DNA of 37,230 nucleotides from the NCBI GenBank assembly GCA_009773615.1, contig WSYA01000017.1, positions 1-37,230 on the forward strand. Reading direction: 5' to 3'. This document shows, in pieces, positions 3,717 through 37,230 of this stretch. Position numbers and translations under genes: made by a program. Under the pieces are notes generated by a model. That model saw only the letters and a program-made list of their open reading frames with translations, was not told where the DNA came from and ran no database searches. This stretch comes from Gallionellaceae bacterium. Lineage in GTDB: Bacteria > Pseudomonadota > Gammaproteobacteria > Burkholderiales > Gallionellaceae. Numbering within the stretch: the first letter of the stretch is position 1; each line of letters starts with the position of its first letter.

Positions 3717-4301
3717 TCAAACAGAACCGCGCGTATAGGCTCCGTCGCGGCGGGCTGCGCCGTTACGGATTAACGCGGCAGATGAAAAATCAATCTCAAC
3801 CAGACAGCAGCGCGCCGGGGCGACGTTGGCTAAAAACTTTCTGGCCATCGCCGCCTGCTGGATGCTCAACAGACGGCTGCAACGCACTCGGTATTCGGCC
3901 CAGTGCGCAGAGCGCTCTCCGCGCACCACAAAACCATCTCGTTTCCATGTACCGTCGCGGCTCTTCCCTGAGCGGCCTTCGTCAATCTCGACAACGCCCA
4001 AGCCCAGCATCTCAAAGACCTGCTTAACGGCGTAGGGAGTGCCCTTGTGCTGGTGAATATCAATGGCGGACTTAATCATCTTGCGCTGCGCGTCTTCGGT
4101 GACGGCCAGCGCCCAAATGTCTTCAGTCAGGCTGTACTGCTCGGCCAAATAGGGAAGCACCGACACATCAACGATGTCGATTAGATAGACCAGCAACGGC
4201 GTCAGATCAATTTGAAATGCCTCAATGGCGATTTGCGCCAGAATACGATAGCGATCATCGGCGGCCAGCGCTGGAGGGATTGGCATCATCGCGTTAACCA
4301 C
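3717..4301 (-). CDS. Tail protein I (baseplate, P2 gpI family)
   Basis: A 194-residue protein with PPALAADDRYRILAQIA near the start and DVSVLPYLAEQYSL in the middle, both characteristic of the P2 gpI family that links the baseplate wedge to the fibre. It follows gpJ as in P2 and BcepMu. The listed GTG at 4301 overlaps the gpJ stop; ATG 4289 or 4286 is also possible and ribosome sites do not settle it. Confidence 0.85.
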   Translation of the reverse strand: MVNAMMPIPPALAADDRYRILAQIAIEAFQIDLTPLLVYLIDIVDVSVLPYLAEQYSLTEDIWALAVTEDAQRKMIKSAIDIHQHKGTPYAVKQVFEMLGLGVVEIDEGRSGKSRDGTWKRDGFVVRGERSAHWAEYRVRCSRLLSIQQAAMARKFLANVAPARCCLVEIDFSSAALIRNGAARRDGAYTRGSV

Positions 4302-8741: not shown

Positions 8742-11396
8742 TTAAAAAGCCCTCCGCTGTTGGTCGGCCAACGTGCGTCGCATCATCTCTTCCAATGTGG
8801 ACTGGTGCGCCCGCAGCATGTCGCCAAACTTCTGCATGGTCTGCGGGGTAGGGTCGCCGTGGATAACGATCTGCGGCTTGTACTCCAGCTTCAGCTCGAT
8901 AGGCGCGGACTTTTTATCAGCGGCAAGCGCTGCCGCAGTCGGCAAGTTTTTCGGCAGTTGCGCAACCGCAGTCTTGGCCTTGTCTGTCCCGGCCAAAGCC
9001 TTACCCGCCTTGCCCCCCAAGTAGTCGCCAAAAATTGACCCGGCAACCCCGCCCAATGCACCGCCGATCAGCGTCCCCACACCGGGGAAAACAGCCGTCC
9101 CGACCAACGCTCCGAGCTTCGCACCGGCCAGCCCGCCAGCCAGCGAACCCGCCGCACCACCTACCGCACCAAACTTATCGCTGGCCCCCATCTTGTCATT
9201 CGCTAGCGCGCTCCCGGCCTGAAACAACGAAGCCCCCACCGCCAATGGCATGGCCAGCTTGCTCGCACCGCCCAGTAGCTTGCCGCCCACACCAGCCAGC
9301 ATGCCCTTAGCGCCAGAAAACAAACCGCCCCCGGCTGCCGCCACGCTGCCTTTGGCCGCTGCTACAGCACCACTAACCGTACCGGGGCTGCCAAATATGC
9401 GCCCCGCAAACGGCACGCTACGGCCAGCCGCCACACCCAGCCGCGCCAGCGAAGCCGCTGCCCCCAAAGCCAGCAACACAGAAGTAAACGCAGCTACTCC
9501 GCCCACCGCAACCACAAGAGCACTGGTCACATTCGGCCATTCAGTCGCAAAAGAATTGAATTTATCCGCCAAGTCGGCCACACCTCCCAACAGGTGGCCG
9601 ACGGCGGGCGAAAGCACATTGCCGATGGTAATGCCGAGATCCATCAGCGAGACTTTCATCCGCTCCCACTGCGCCGTGGTCAGGCGGTTCTGCTCCTCCA
9701 AGTCCCGATCAATCGTCCCCTTGACCCCCTCGGTATCCAGCGTATCGCGTGTCTCCCTATATTTCCCCTTGCCCGTCATCCACGCCAGATAAGCCTGTGT
9801 CGCCTGCATATCCTGCATCACACTGGAAAGGCCTACACGCTGTACTGCGCTTTGCACATACTGAGTGAGCGCATCGCCCTGAAGGTTATTTTTCTTCGCC
9901 TCCGCCATCGCTGCCGCCAGCTCGGCCTTCATGTCCGTGCTACTCTTGAGCCGCCCCTTCTTATCGTAAGTTTTGACCTTGCCCGACTCGACCACCTTGT
10001 TGATGTAATCGTCGAAAACCATAAAGCTGGCTTCCACGTTGGAAGTCTTTCCCTTGCTGGCAATCACCTTGGCAAGCTTCGCTTTTTCAAACTCAATACC
10101 CACGCTCTTGAAGTTGTCCTGGGTAGAATTCGAGCTCATGTGGCTGAACCAGTTGCGCATATAGGTTTCCGCCTCACTCGCACTGCCTGATCCGGCGCGC
10201 ATGGTCTGCATCAACGCACCCATTTCCTTCACGCCCTGCATGCCTGTCGAACCAAACGAAGCTGCCGCCCCGCCCAGCTCCGGGAAAGCCTTCGCCATCG
10301 CCTTGATCTCGTACTGACCCAGCTTGCCCGCCTTGGCCAGCACATTGATCGCATCAAAGATTTCGCCTTCAGTCTTGAGTTTGAATTTTGTTTGCAGCGT
10401 ATAGACCAGCTCGGCCAAATCGCCCATGTCCGCCCGTGTCGCCTTCGCCACCTTGGCCAGCATCCCCGAGTAGCTGGCGGCCACTTTGGCATCCATGCCC
10501 TGCGCAACGAGGCGCTCGACACCAGCCGCCACGTTGTCATGGCTCACGCCGTTTTTGGTCGCCGCCTCGCGCACCTTGGCTGCCAACGCCGCCTCCGCCC
10601 CTTTTTCTTTGTACAGCTCGCCGGTAATGCTGATCTGCCTGATCTTATCTTCAAACTGCGCGCTCACCGCCACAGGTGCCGCCAAAGATGCGCCAACGCC
10701 GACCGCCGCCACCGCATTCATCTTGCGGTCGTTAAATTCGGCCTTGTACTTGGTCACATCCTTTTGCACAGCAATCAAGCGTTGATAGCGCGCCGTCAGC
10801 TTGTCTAGCGTGCGCTGTTCCTGCTCCATTTGGCGGCGCAAGCGGCCACGCTCTTCACCCAGCTTAGCGGTATTGATACCCGCCTTATTCATCTCCTCCC
10901 GCAGCGCCTGCACCTTGCGGGTCTGCTCGATCAGCTCCGCCGAAAGTTCTTTACCTTTTTCGCGCTGCTTATCAAATTCCTTGGTGAGCGTCTTAACGTC
11001 CTTTTCGGCACCGCTCGCCTGATCGCGCAAGAGTTGCAGCTTCAACCGTTGCTCATCGGTAGTCTTGGTGTCCTGCTGAGCCAACTCTGCCCGATAATCC
11101 TTGAGCGCCTGCGTGCTCTCATTCTGAAAACCCTTCGCCTCGGCCAGCGACTTGCCCATGCGCGTAGTTTCCGCCCGGTGCGTTTCCACGGCCTTGGTCG
11201 CGGCAACAACAGCAGCCTTTTCTTTGACGAAAGAATCCACTACCGACAGCCCCATCGCATTCATCCGCTCGGTAGTCTGTACGCTAGCCTTCGTTAGCTG
11301 CTCCATGCGGCTGGTCATGCTGCCGATAGACGCAGCTACGCCGCCAGCACCACCGGCAGAGAAAATAAGCTTGAGTTCAATCGCGCCTGTTGCCAT
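8742..11396 (-). CDS. Tail tape measure protein
   Basis: An 884-residue protein. Residues 40-215 are a long charged coiled coil. Residues 230-480 match the TP901-type tape measure core (FEDKIRQISITGELYKEKG, GMQGVKEMGALMQTMR). Two hydrophobic Gly/Ala-rich stretches follow (about 635-675 and 770-835), as expected for the part that enters the host membrane. At about 1.5 angstrom per residue the length predicts a tail of roughly 130 nm. Its start codon overlaps the -10 box of a divergent promoter for the small gene at 11407. Confidence 0.92.
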   Translation of the reverse strand: MATGAIELKLIFSAGGAGGVAASIGSMTSRMEQLTKASVQTTERMNAMGLSVVDSFVKEKAAVVAATKAVETHRAETTRMGKSLAEAKGFQNESTQALKDYRAELAQQDTKTTDEQRLKLQLLRDQASGAEKDVKTLTKEFDKQREKGKELSAELIEQTRKVQALREEMNKAGINTAKLGEERGRLRRQMEQEQRTLDKLTARYQRLIAVQKDVTKYKAEFNDRKMNAVAAVGVGASLAAPVAVSAQFEDKIRQISITGELYKEKGAEAALAAKVREAATKNGVSHDNVAAGVERLVAQGMDAKVAASYSGMLAKVAKATRADMGDLAELVYTLQTKFKLKTEGEIFDAINVLAKAGKLGQYEIKAMAKAFPELGGAAASFGSTGMQGVKEMGALMQTMRAGSGSASEAETYMRNWFSHMSSNSTQDNFKSVGIEFEKAKLAKVIASKGKTSNVEASFMVFDDYINKVVESGKVKTYDKKGRLKSSTDMKAELAAAMAEAKKNNLQGDALTQYVQSAVQRVGLSSVMQDMQATQAYLAWMTGKGKYRETRDTLDTEGVKGTIDRDLEEQNRLTTAQWERMKVSLMDLGITIGNVLSPAVGHLLGGVADLADKFNSFATEWPNVTSALVVAVGGVAAFTSVLLALGAAASLARLGVAAGRSVPFAGRIFGSPGTVSGAVAAAKGSVAAAGGGLFSGAKGMLAGVGGKLLGGASKLAMPLAVGASLFQAGSALANDKMGASDKFGAVGGAAGSLAGGLAGAKLGALVGTAVFPGVGTLIGGALGGVAGSIFGDYLGGKAGKALAGTDKAKTAVAQLPKNLPTAAALAADKKSAPIELKLEYKPQIVIHGDPTPQTMQKFGDMLRAHQSTLEEMMRRTLADQQRRAF

Positions 11397-11399
11397 AAT
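11371..11399 (+). promoter_or_regulatory. Sigma70-type promoter of the opposite-strand gene
   Basis: TTGAGT (11371-11376), a 17-base spacer and CATAAT (11394-11399) form a good housekeeping promoter pointing away from the tape measure gene. The expected start at about 11406 is next to the ATG at 11407, so a leaderless or one-base-leader transcript is predicted. The -10 overlaps the tape measure start codon. Confidence 0.65.
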
Positions 11400-11406
11400 T
11401 CAACCC

Positions 11407-11670
11407 ATGAAAAATTATTTTCAAACTTTGCAAATCGCAGAAACCTTGCCCGGCATCGTGCATTGGCTGATCGGCACGCTCATGTGCTTTATTGCCATCA
11501 CACTCGAAAACGCAAGTTACATCGAGCGTGGCGAGGTGTTGGGGCCGCTGCTTTTCTGTTCCTTGGGCGGCATCGTGCTCATCATCGCCAGCCGCCTGCT
11601 CATGTTGATGCTTCCCCGGCCTTATGCTTGGCTTGCCCAAAAGATCACTGGCGCGGTGTCTGCAAACTAA
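11407..11670 (+). CDS. Small membrane protein on the opposite strand (candidate moron)
   Basis: An 87-residue protein with two clear membrane segments (about 17-34 and 48-68) joined by a short charged loop (ENASYIERGE), ending in an amphipathic tail. I recognise no family. It is the only plus-strand gene in the 18 kb left arm, inserted between the tail chaperone E' and the tape measure. Its 3' end overlaps that of E' by 26 bases. It has its own sigma70-like promoter and no ribosome-binding site, so it may be expressed in the lysogen from a leaderless message. Such lone genes (morons) often change the host surface or block related phages; that role is inference. Confidence 0.7.
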   Translation: MKNYFQTLQIAETLPGIVHWLIGTLMCFIAITLENASYIERGEVLGPLLFCSLGGIVLIIASRLLMLMLPRPYAWLAQKITGAVSAN

Positions 11671-11875
11671 TCTGCTCCAACGCCTGCTTTACCCAACGCA
11701 CAAACTCATCAGCCTCCATCGCATCCATTTCTGACGGCTGCATCCGAAACCATCTGGCCAGCAAGCCTTGAGCATCCCAAAACGCTTTTTCGTCTTCTGC
11801 TAAATCAGGTAAGCCCCCGAAGACAGGCCTGAACATCGCCCCAATCGGACAAGTCCAAGCACTCAACATCTTCAA
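11645..11875 (-). CDS. E' : frameshift extension of the tail assembly chaperone
   Basis: The frame contains RPVFGGLPDLAEDEKAFWDAQ, the P2 GpE' pattern (WRPVFG.LPDLAE). It overlaps the end of E in another frame and has no ribosome-binding site of its own, so it is most likely made only as an extension of E by ribosomal frameshifting. The listed start (11875) is the first ATG of the open frame and is not thought to be used. A -2 shift at the G5 run gives a fusion of about 178 residues. The product should wrap the tape measure during tail assembly. Confidence 0.8.
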   Translation of the reverse strand: MKMLSAWTCPIGAMFRPVFGGLPDLAEDEKAFWDAQGLLARWFRMQPSEMDAMEADEFVRWVKQALEQISLQTPRQ

Positions 11876-12179
11876 ACACCAACTCTTCTTTAGCGAGAAT
11901 CACTACCAGCCAGCCATCCACATCCTCCGAGACACCTTCGGAGTTACGCTGAGCCATCTTCAAGTCCTTCAACTTGCCCCGGCGCAAAGTGATGGTCGTC
12001 ACTTTTTCGCCCTTGCCGTTGGTGAGGGGATATTTCAATACCGTTTGATGGGGAATCTTTACGGCGGCTTCTGATTTTGCGTTGGCTTCTGATGCTACTT
12101 GTGAAGCAGCGAGTGCCGCCGCTGCGGCTGCGATCTGTTCTGCTTCGAGGGCTGCGATTGCTGCGGACTTTTCACTCAT
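11805..12179 (-). CDS. Tail assembly chaperone E
   Basis: A 124-residue protein in the place of P2 gpE between tube and tape measure. The first 40 residues are Ala-rich and helical; the rest has the family feature YPLTNGKGEKVTTITLRRGKLKDLK, typical of tail assembly chaperones of this type. I choose ATG 12179, since GGAG lies six bases upstream; ATG 12191 would put the ribosome site inside the gene. It ends in the frameshift window for E'. The first gene of its operon, it has an activator-type promoter 36 bases upstream. Confidence 0.85.
   Translation of the reverse strand: MSEKSAAIAALEAEQIAAAAAALAASQVASEANAKSEAAVKIPHQTVLKYPLTNGKGEKVTTITLRRGKLKDLKMAQRNSEGVSEDVDGWLVVILAKEELVFEDVECLDLSDWGDVQACLRGLT
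11811..11821 (-). promoter_or_regulatory. Candidate -2 frameshift site (CTT CGG GGG CTT)
   Basis: A run of five G (11818-11814 on the minus strand) lies two codons before the E stop region. After decoding GGG (11816-11814), a slip of two bases back lets tRNA-Gly pair again with GGG (11818-11816), and the next codon becomes GGC TTA CCT, the E' frame. Mu, as I recall, uses a -2 shift in the same pair of genes. Confidence 0.65.
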
Positions 12180-12214
12180 TTCAATCTCCATCGGTTATCG
12201 GTTAAAGATGGAGC

Positions 12215-12258: not shown

Positions 12259-12270
12259 ACCGACAGGCGT

Positions 12271-12302
12271 AAAAAACCCGCCGGATTAGGGCGGGCTTTT
12301 CA
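12271..12302. terminator. Terminator between tube gene and chaperone operon
   Basis: CCCGCC and GGCGGG pair around a 7-base loop, with A6 on one side and TTTT on the other, so it works in both directions. On the minus strand it ends the protease-to-tube operon 20 bases after the tube stop and just before the next late promoter. Confidence 0.88.
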
Positions 12303-21899: not shown

Positions 21900-21909
21900 G
21901 GTGAACGAC

Positions 21910-23715
21910 ATGGCCGCACAACTTTCCCCCGATATGCTCCAGCAGCTTTTTACCCTGCGCGATGCGCTCAATGCCGCGCAGCATGGCGAACAGACCGCAC
22001 AGGTAGAGGCTTTCGCCAACCGTATAGGCAAGAGCGTCAACACCGTATGGGTATGGCTCAAATCCCATGCCGGGTATCAGTCCGGGCGCAAGCGGCGGGC
22101 GGATGCTGGAAAGACCGGCATCTCCGTCGATGCCATCGAAACCATCGCGGCAATGAAGCGTGAGGGCGTGCGCGGCAATGGCAAAAAGACCATGCCGACT
22201 TGCGTAGCCATGAACATCGCCCACGTCAACGGCATCGAGGTCAACCTCAGCAAGAGCCGTATCAACACCATCATGCGCGAACAGCGGCTCGATGTCGCCA
22301 GTGTGGTAGGTGCGCGCAACACCATCCAGTTGCGTACCGAACACCCGAACCACATGCACCAGATCGACCCGTCGCTGTGCCTGATCTATTACATGGGTGG
22401 TAAACAACACGCCATGCGCGCCGAAGAGTTCTACAAGAATAAGCTGGAGAACTTTGCCAAGGTAGTACTCAAGGTGTGGCGCTACGTGCGCTATGACCAT
22501 GCTTCCGGCTCGGTAGATGTGCGCTACTTCGAGGCTGCTGGTGAAAACCAGCACAGCCTGTTTGAGTTTCTTTTGTGGACATGGTGCAAACAAGCAAACC
22601 GCCTTTCGCACGGCGTGCCAAAGATGCTGTTGTGGGATAAGGGCAGCGCCAACACCAGCAACGCCATCAAGAGCCTGCTCGATGCGCTGGGGGTGGATCA
22701 TCAAACTCACCAAGCCGGTCACGCATGGGCAAAGGGCGGTGTCGAGCAAGCCAACAATCTGGTTGAAACCCACTTTGAAAGCCGTCTAAAAATTGAGCCG
22801 GTTGATAGCGTAGCGCAACTCAACGCTTCGGCTGAAAAATGGGTGCGCGACCATAATGCAAACGCCATCCCGCACGTGGAATGCAGGGTCAAGCGTGCGA
22901 GCGGCGAGCTGCTGGTGCGCGATGATCTGTGGCAACTCATTATGCGTACACCCGGCGCGCTGGTTGAAATGCCAGAGCGCAAGGTATGCGCGTGGTTCCT
23001 TCACGGCGCAGAACAAAGCCGCCAAGTGCGCAATCTGCGCATCAGCTTCGTGCATCCGGAGCTGGGCAAGTCACACCAATACGACCTCAGACCGTGGGCT
23101 GAGTTCTTGGGCAACGGCGTGGCGATCAAGGTGTGGCCGCTGCTGCTCAAAGACGGCGCGGTGCGCATCGAGATCGCCCGGATCGGCGGCGAGCCGATCA
23201 TTGCGGAAGTGGGAGCCGAGCGCGAGTTTGATGAATTTGGCCGCTCCATCAATGCCCAGATGGTTGGCGAATACAGCCGCTCCTCCACCACTTCAGATGA
23301 GGCAGCAGAAAAGCGCCTTGCCCAAGCTGCCTACGGTGCAGATGCCAACCGCGACACCGCAGAAAAAAGCCGTGCTACTCAAGCCCGCCCCTTTGCTCAC
23401 CTCAACGATGGCAAGGGCTTGGTCGCGCATTCTCACCTGGGCAAAGAAGAGTTGCCGCAACGCATGCTGCCCAAAGCGCAGCCGCTGGATACCGAACAGG
23501 TGCGCGCCGCCCGTGATGCCCGCACCGAGTTCCCGCCGCTCTCGCTAGTCGAGTTTGCCAAGAGCATGGGCCAGCAATGGCAGGCCAGCTTTGCCGCCGT
23601 TGTGTCGCAGCGTTACCCCGAAGGAAAGATACCCGCAGCAGATGTTGAGTCGCTCAAAGAGCGGCTGCTACGTGGTGAGCAAAAACCGTTGGCTGTCGTA
23701 GGAGGAATGAAGTGA
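21910..23715 (+). CDS. A: Transposase A (MuA-like DDE recombinase)
   Basis: A 601-residue DDE transposase. D153 (HQIDPSLCL), D243 (LLWDKGSAN) and E279 (GGVEQANN) form the catalytic triad with exactly 35 residues between the last two. An N-terminal helix-turn-helix (FANRIGKSVNTVWVWLKSH) should bind the ends or the operator region; the C-terminal beta-barrel (GVAIKVWPLLLKDGAVRIEI) is of the Mu type. It joins the GATAAAT-bearing ends and carries out replicative transposition. I choose ATG 21910, with GAGGTGA five bases upstream; GTG 21901 is part of that ribosome site. Its stop touches B. Confidence 0.93.
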   Translation: MAAQLSPDMLQQLFTLRDALNAAQHGEQTAQVEAFANRIGKSVNTVWVWLKSHAGYQSGRKRRADAGKTGISVDAIETIAAMKREGVRGNGKKTMPTCVAMNIAHVNGIEVNLSKSRINTIMREQRLDVASVVGARNTIQLRTEHPNHMHQIDPSLCLIYYMGGKQHAMRAEEFYKNKLENFAKVVLKVWRYVRYDHASGSVDVRYFEAAGENQHSLFEFLLWTWCKQANRLSHGVPKMLLWDKGSANTSNAIKSLLDALGVDHQTHQAGHAWAKGGVEQANNLVETHFESRLKIEPVDSVAQLNASAEKWVRDHNANAIPHVECRVKRASGELLVRDDLWQLIMRTPGALVEMPERKVCAWFLHGAEQSRQVRNLRISFVHPELGKSHQYDLRPWAEFLGNGVAIKVWPLLLKDGAVRIEIARIGGEPIIAEVGAEREFDEFGRSINAQMVGEYSRSSTTSDEAAEKRLAQAAYGADANRDTAEKSRATQARPFAHLNDGKGLVAHSHLGKEELPQRMLPKAQPLDTEQVRAARDARTEFPPLSLVEFAKSMGQQWQASFAAVVSQRYPEGKIPAADVESLKERLLRGEQKPLAVVGGMK

Positions 23716-29475: not shown

Positions 29476-29868
29476 ATGTTTGTGAAGCACATATCTTTTA
29501 CTGCGGTACTCGCCGCATTGCGCCATTGCTGGAGTCGCTCCCCTCGTTTCACTGGCCTAGTGCTGTTTACGCTTGCGCTGCTTGGTTTCATCGCTTATCT
29601 GAAGCCTGAACTGATCGGCGATGACATTCACAAGCTATCGCTTGCCACGCTGGGTGCATTGCTTGGTTTCTGGCTCGATCTGCGCGCTTTACCTTACGCT
29701 CGCCCCGATGGTTACTTAGTCGCTGCCGACTGGCGCACGTGCGGTAAGCGTAAGGATGCGGCTGATTTTGCTATCGCGCCTGGCTATGAGTTGGTGTTTG
29801 CAATAGCGTGTTTCCGGCGCATTTTCATCATGGGTTTAATCGCCGTTGTCATCGGAATGGCGATGTAA
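29476..29868 (+). CDS. Putative holin
   Basis: A 130-residue membrane protein with membrane helices at about 26-43, 52-66 and 108-127. The block LATLGALLGFWLDLRALPYARPDGYL fits a holin family of Mu-like phages (Phage_holin_8 type, with the DRxLFPYARP-like motif). It is the first late gene of the right arm and lies directly before the endolysin, which supports the call. GGAGGG lies six bases before the ATG and its stop overlaps the next start (TAATG). Confidence 0.75.
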   Translation: MFVKHISFTAVLAALRHCWSRSPRFTGLVLFTLALLGFIAYLKPELIGDDIHKLSLATLGALLGFWLDLRALPYARPDGYLVAADWRTCGKRKDAADFAIAPGYELVFAIACFRRIFIMGLIAVVIGMAM

Positions 29869-37131: not shown

Positions 37132-37230
37132 CGCTAATTCAACGGGGCATCATACGCGGGTCAAAAGTCGCCCACAATAAACAATATGGGGGGCGTTTTG
37201 GGTTACGAGAGAACACGAAAACACACTTCA
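37132..37230. other. Right host flank
   Basis: A 99-base flank without a recognisable gene. A weak GCCC/GGGC hairpin with TTTT (about 37166-37199) looks like a host terminator on the plus strand. It does not continue the Pro-rich repeat of the left flank, and no 5-base target duplication matches the left side. Confidence 0.5.

Follow-up and report, generated by a model that had tools for sequence, protein, structure and literature searches.

An antisense membrane-hairpin gene with a putative leaderless promoter over the tape-measure start of a BcepMu-type phage

Introduction

Why would a phage carry one small gene backwards in its tail operon, its start set against that of the tape-measure protein (TMP)? 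The question is raised by contig WSYA01000017.1 of a Gallionellaceae bacterium (the window: 37,230 nucleotides (nt), one whole contig of its assembly), which by PHROGs and Pfam matches holds a transposable phage of BcepMu type with a P2-like contractile tail, and in which an open reading frame (ORF) for 87 amino acids (aa) lies antisense between the tail chaperone/GpE genes and the TMP gene. A preliminary description, drawn from the letters of the DNA, had read this ORF as a membrane-protein gene with its own leaderless promoter. Two aspects of the analysis presented here are new, namely that one antisense membrane-protein slot recurs across several unrelated sequence families and that a putative leaderless promoter is laid over the TMP start; no description of an antisense slot between chaperone and TMP genes was found in the open-licence literature.

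Results

The gene, its promoter and its immediate neighbours are as follows.

11407-11670, plus strand: antisense moron of 87 aa with two helices, ATG start and TAA stop, supported by homologues, a helical model and shuffled controls
11371-11376, plus strand: -35 box TTGAGT, falling within the opening codons of the TMP gene
11391-11392 and 11394-11399, plus strand: extended -10 element, TG and CATAAT, covering the complement of the TMP start codon (11394-11396)
11405-11407, plus strand: predicted transcription start of a leaderless mRNA, placed from the 7-nt gap between the -10 element and the ATG
8742-11396, minus strand: TMP gene, 884 aa (PF10145, phrog_794), divergent neighbour of the antisense gene
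11645-11875, minus strand: GpE-like frame, E' of the tail chaperone pair (PF06528, E=1.6e-5)
11805-12191, minus strand: tail assembly chaperone gene (PF10109, E=4e-12)

The 87-aa product carries two hydrophobic segments, and an ATG-initiated ORF of at least 80 aa with two transmembrane segments arose in none of 4,000 dinucleotide shuffles of the gap. A structure model built from four sequences is a helical hairpin (mean pLDDT 78), from which the product is predicted to be a small inner-membrane helical hairpin, with both termini probably cytoplasmic because the loop has acidic residues and the C-terminal region basic ones. All genes identified by PHROGs or Pfam between 289 and 18284 lie on the minus strand, as does the repressor up to 19513, which leaves 11407-11670 as the sole plus-strand gene amid the late genes; its 3' end converges on that of the GpE-like frame, with an overlap of 26 nt. 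In-frame TTG starts further upstream, at 11152 or 11371, were rejected since homology to relatives begins at the 11407 ATG. That the antisense gene is real we regard as close to certain. The preliminary description had placed here an opposite-strand, two-helix membrane gene, the only plus-strand one in 18 kb, and both points hold; the span of 11371-11670 that it assigned to the gene is to be divided, as the gene itself occupies 11407-11670 and the -35 box opens at 11371, which makes the longer span promoter plus gene.

The two promoter elements are separated by 17 nt, and transcription is predicted to start at about 11406, roughly one base before the ATG, because the -10 element ends 7 nt before that codon. 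No Shine-Dalgarno sequence precedes the 11407 ATG (anti-Shine-Dalgarno duplex +1.9 kcal/mol). With a leaderless-geometry score of 10, this ATG is the only one to reach at least 9 among the 1,296 on both strands of the window, and its promoter score is unusual against shuffles of its own upstream sequence (p = 1.5e-4). The locus thereby displays, at the level of sequence, the marks of a leaderless gene (a -10 element that stops some 6-8 nt short of the ATG, with a Shine-Dalgarno sequence lacking) together with that of a moron whose promoter is independent of the surrounding operon, TTGAGT-17-TGcCATAAT opposing the late genes. The earlier claims that TTGAGT-17-CATAAT is aimed at the ATG, with a start about one base upstream and no ribosome site, and that the promoter overlaps the TMP start are likewise upheld, the -10 element containing the complement of the TMP start codon. 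Leaderless expression of the gene in the lysogen is, on this evidence, likely.

The relatives of the gene were reached through its neighbour. Direct searches with the 87-aa protein gave no match in phage records, viral contigs or 100 relative genomes, profile A1 matched the window alone across 399 genomes of the order, and two TMP-alignment scans of genome contigs returned no match. Comparison with Pfam, PHROGs, NCBIfam and PADLOC produced no usable match, a PKD_channel hit (E=0.09) being dismissed as hydrophobic noise, and Foldseek comparison of the protein model with viral models gave nothing below E=1. The family was instead recovered by anchoring on the adjacent TMP, a search for whose relatives led to three viral contigs (L002, L003 and L004), each with a homologous antisense two-helix ORF between its GpE-like and TMP genes, 33-40% identical to the window protein and sharing with it HW..G and PYAW-type motifs. 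Pseudomonas phage Bise provides a probable fifth member, antisense in the same slot and annotated as a coding sequence (hypothetical protein WWQ71680.1, OR683401); it resembles the window gene in its C-terminal P-x-[PY/F]-AWLAxRLG motif, its slot and strand and the layout of the phage, and differs in its identity of about 28%, in an ATG that overlaps the original TMP start and in having no clear leaderless promoter. The antisense and TMP genes of Bise, L002, L003 and L004 share the palindrome CATG, in which their start codons overlap; the window differs from the rest of the family, its TMP start lying about 10 nt further on without such an overlap. Second codon positions are the least variable in 6/6 family pairs and third positions the most variable in 5/6, with changes at positions 1/2/3 of 31/28/50 for L003-L004 and 45/31/63 for window-L003; in the window-L002 pair positions 1 and 3 are nearly even.

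The Bise TMP region has a peculiarity of its own. The annotated TMP gene starts at 4037 (L030 3909-4040), and the frame that begins at the CATG at 3908-3911 matches the TMP N terminus of the relatives before being broken by a frame change; the annotation may be truncated there, or the sequence mutated or erroneous.

To what extent is the slot itself a recurrent feature? A profile of more distant TMPs located 80 viral-contig loci, 77 of them with enough upstream sequence, and in 50/77 the gap that separates chaperone/GpE from TMP is occupied by a two-helix ORF in antisense orientation, whose ATG mostly precedes the TMP start by 20-46 nt. The remaining 27/77 are empty, sense ORFs filling the space as far as the TMP start or nearly so, and phage P2 itself lacks the gap. 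The 50-locus set is redundant; dropping near-identical contexts and adding the window, the four other members of its family and further prophage cases yields 36 distinct genes which, the surveyed loci being related by descent, do not represent 36 independent events.

The slot occupants comprise several sequence families. Profile comparison, in which reversed-alignment controls reached 18%, linked family B1 to B2, B4 and L041 (80-95%), B2 to B4 (67%) and B3 weakly; the window's family was not linked to any other (best 31%, with a single sequence), and deep homology between it and the other slot families is unsupported by this comparison. PHROGs splits the occupants too, into family 20219 ("moron, membrane protein") and families 18301, 25743 and 28317 (unknown function), all of which share slot, antisense orientation and two-helix form with the window gene, several with the same leaderless promoter. 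The window protein matches none of the four, and family-to-family hhalign comparison with 20219 gave 0.7%. Pasteurella phage AFS-2018a carries an unannotated 77-aa antisense two-helix ORF of PHROG 28317 in the slot (L054 7456-7689), preceded by TTGCTA-17-TATATT 24 nt upstream and by a strong ribosome-binding site.

In these sister families dN/dS ranges from about 0 to 0.35 (MNIQ group) and from 0.1 to 0.6 (MFEK and MENAL groups), which points to purifying selection on the antisense frame. The slot is filled in L064 and empty in L065, though their TMPs are 93% identical, and because of this pair the slot gene is, as judged by locus comparison, one that comes and goes in the manner of a moron. 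Presence in some phages and absence from close relatives is thus seen in the sister families; for the window, no close relative whose slot is unoccupied was found.

Promoters were scored by a -10 element ending 5-9 nt before each ATG. With one start per gene chosen, at loci offering alternative ATGs, after the sequences and first scores had been seen (a choice that somewhat favours the hypothesis), 20 of the 36 distinct slot genes score at least 8, against 0.37% of the 2,159 remaining antisense ATGs at these loci, none of which scores 9. The signal is almost confined to distances of 6-9 nt from the ATG, and slot genes without a leaderless promoter mostly have a Shine-Dalgarno sequence (mean duplex -3.9 vs -0.6 kcal/mol). 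Sister-family genes usually have their -35 box on the strand complementary to the TMP start, where ATGGCAA reads TTGCCAT, so that this box is partly forced by the TMP. The -10 element, situated in the short gap between the two starts, is missing from 27/27 empty loci, several of them with the same TMP start, and is hence not forced. In the window it is the -10 element, rather than the -35 box, that covers the TMP start codon. The promoter that the preliminary description had ascribed to the window gene is consequently common at the slot and not a one-off. Its further expectations fare similarly, codon-level conservation of the frame being borne out by the antisense homologues in L002, L003, L004 and Bise and by the sister families, and variable presence at this site by L064 and L065, for sister families rather than for the window's own.

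Discussion

The HK97 moron gp15 reportedly mediates superinfection exclusion, as described by Cumby et al. in 2012. Like the window gene, it encodes a small membrane protein exactly between the tail chaperone and TMP genes and is a moron with its own signals; the position is the same and the orientation opposite, and no homology was detected (hhalign probability 0.25%). HK97 hybrids with the tail tube and TMP genes of HK022 escape gp15 exclusion (PMC10883804). A second parallel is provided by Tab of the Mu-like, transposable Pseudomonas phage JBD26, a small antisense moron of the late operon that is expressed in the prophage from its own promoter and acts on the TMP (PMC10884400). Tab differs in lying between terminase genes, paired with anti-Tab, and in having no leaderless promoter, and it too shows no homology to the window protein (hhalign probability 0.14%). 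In terms of the features compared here, the window gene is a moron by behaviour and a leaderless gene by sequence, with a slot shared with gp15 and an antisense logic shared with Tab.

What might such a gene do? The best explanation, to which by analogy we would give an even chance, is that the gene encodes an inner-membrane protein, made by the prophage, which keeps out superinfecting phages at the step of TMP-dependent DNA entry. Inserted backwards between the chaperone and TMP genes, the moron would be expressed from the prophage, host σ70 RNA polymerase transcribing it from the promoter embedded in the TMP start region into what comparative sequence evidence suggests is a leaderless mRNA. 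A small inner-membrane helical hairpin would be made in the lysogen, with the late operon silent, and would most likely block superinfecting related phages at the point where their TMP arrives at or passes through the inner membrane to let DNA in; on induction, head-on late tail transcription on the opposite strand would shut the moron off. Expression in the lysogen and shutdown in the lytic phase fit because the σ70 promoter points against the late operon, and exclusion at the entry stage would be the simplest reading because of the gp15 slot, the antisense logic of Tab and the role of the TMP in DNA entry, as the TMP takes part in DNA passage across the inner membrane (PMC13190303); the gene for the presumed target would then travel together with the exclusion gene. 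The preliminary description had pointed the same way, towards expression from the repressed prophage and a conversion or exclusion gene opposed by late tail transcription, and the sequence evidence supports that interpretation, with exclusion as its putative part.

Several observations weigh against this proposal. Within its own family the window alone has a leaderless promoter, as the L002 and L003 genes look leadered and those of L004 and Bise have no clear promoter. In sequence the window protein resembles neither gp15 nor Tab nor any PADLOC family; gp15 has 62 aa, a single N-terminal helix and a sense-strand gene, and Tab is not a two-helix membrane hairpin and blocks tail assembly rather than entry. 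The precedents for TMP-dependent entry, moreover, come from long non-contractile tails, as opposed to the contractile tail encoded here. A broader idea is tentative: that BcepMu-type transposable phages possess a dedicated, reusable slot on the TMP start codon, filled by mutually unrelated membrane-hairpin exclusion proteins, and that the leaderless promoter, being partly built of the TMP-start complement, might make lysogenic exclusion and lytic tail synthesis mutually exclusive by design.

Expression logic, membrane location and moron behaviour would also fit with lysogenic conversion, in which the hairpin changes the host envelope or physiology and does not act on phage entry at the tape-measure step, and many morons do act by altering the host (PMC2920897). 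Such a role, credible if unlikely, leaves unexplained why many families use the slot beside the TMP that is shared with HK97 gp15. Exclusion or defence by another route, through the receptor, abortive infection or Tab-like interference with tail assembly instead of TMP-dependent entry, appears quite unlikely. Its precedent is close, Tab being a similar-sized, antisense, prophage-expressed moron of a transposable phage that acts on the TMP in assembly (PMC10884400); Tab, however, requires the adjacent sense-strand anti-Tab, and the slot holds no second gene; a membrane hairpin fits an entry step better than cytoplasmic assembly.

With a promoter on the TMP start and a transcript complementary to the chaperone mRNA, extending perhaps to a hairpin at 12265-12300, it may be asked whether antisense RNA or transcription, rather than the protein, restrains leaky expression of TMP and chaperone in the lysogen. 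Selection on the protein sequence and on its two-helix form argues otherwise, as does the loss of the -10 box wherever the gene is absent, and we consider this improbable. A late lytic membrane protein (a holin, an antiholin or a virion-associated entry factor) is highly improbable: two-helix hairpins are similar in form to class II holins, but the gene runs antisense to the late genes and related phages often lack an occupant of the slot, and for the holin function in particular the window has a candidate elsewhere (29476-29868, phrog_1528), for which reason that assignment was rejected. A spurious ORF with a chance promoter-like sequence is barely credible, for the lack of matches to window-family members in Pfam, PHROGs, NCBIfam and PADLOC is outweighed by homologues sharing start, slot and orientation, by the 0/4,000 shuffles, by a conserved promoter, by purifying selection in sister families and by the annotated Bise copy.

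If prophage-expressed exclusion at DNA entry is the right reading, the slot predicts where exclusion genes invisible to homology search should sit. Scattered phage families of "unknown function" and unannotated ORFs such as that of AFS-2018a come together as one recurring genetic device, and the slot genes offer, as a natural collection, leaderless phage genes and leadered ones to match them. Bise, as an induced and sequenced member, makes the idea directly testable.

Genomic Context

The following further features of the window were identified, those of the first five lines by PHROGs or Pfam matches.

21901-23715: MuA-like transposase
In the window: MuB-like protein
29476-29868: holin (phrog_1528)
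Plus strand: terminase and portal
Minus strand: head protease, capsid and contractile-tail genes
12265-12300, both strands: hairpin with flanking A and T runs, between the tail-tube and chaperone genes

Read on the minus strand, the hairpin is a strong terminator (-20.7 kcal/mol, z -3.4); on the plus strand, where the antisense transcript could possibly end, it is weaker. Judged by eye, the corresponding gap of L004 contains a similar hairpin. The overlap of the chaperone and GpE frames (11805-11875, minus strand) is in a register joinable by a +1 or a -2 shift and contains a GGGGGC run at 11813-11818; it recalls phage Mu, which uses a -2 frameshift.

The split of the late genes over two strands had raised the suspicion of a wrongly joined contig, which was rejected; the gene arrangement is genuine, since Bise has the same divergent layout. 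The left contig end (1-120) stops within a short CCGGCATAT-type repeat, without host DNA. The right end (37171-37230, minus strand) reads TGAAGTG... and is probably the phage terminus because of its likeness to the TGAACAG... end of Bise. At the far end of the late arm the window has a DNA methyltransferase gene (phrog_56, 289-1113), and Bise carries a DNA adenine methylase at the matching position. Near its tail-fibre end (L051 34881-36637), Bise further encodes a four-helix-bundle protein and a reverse transcriptase, which suggests that it carries a diversity-generating retroelement.
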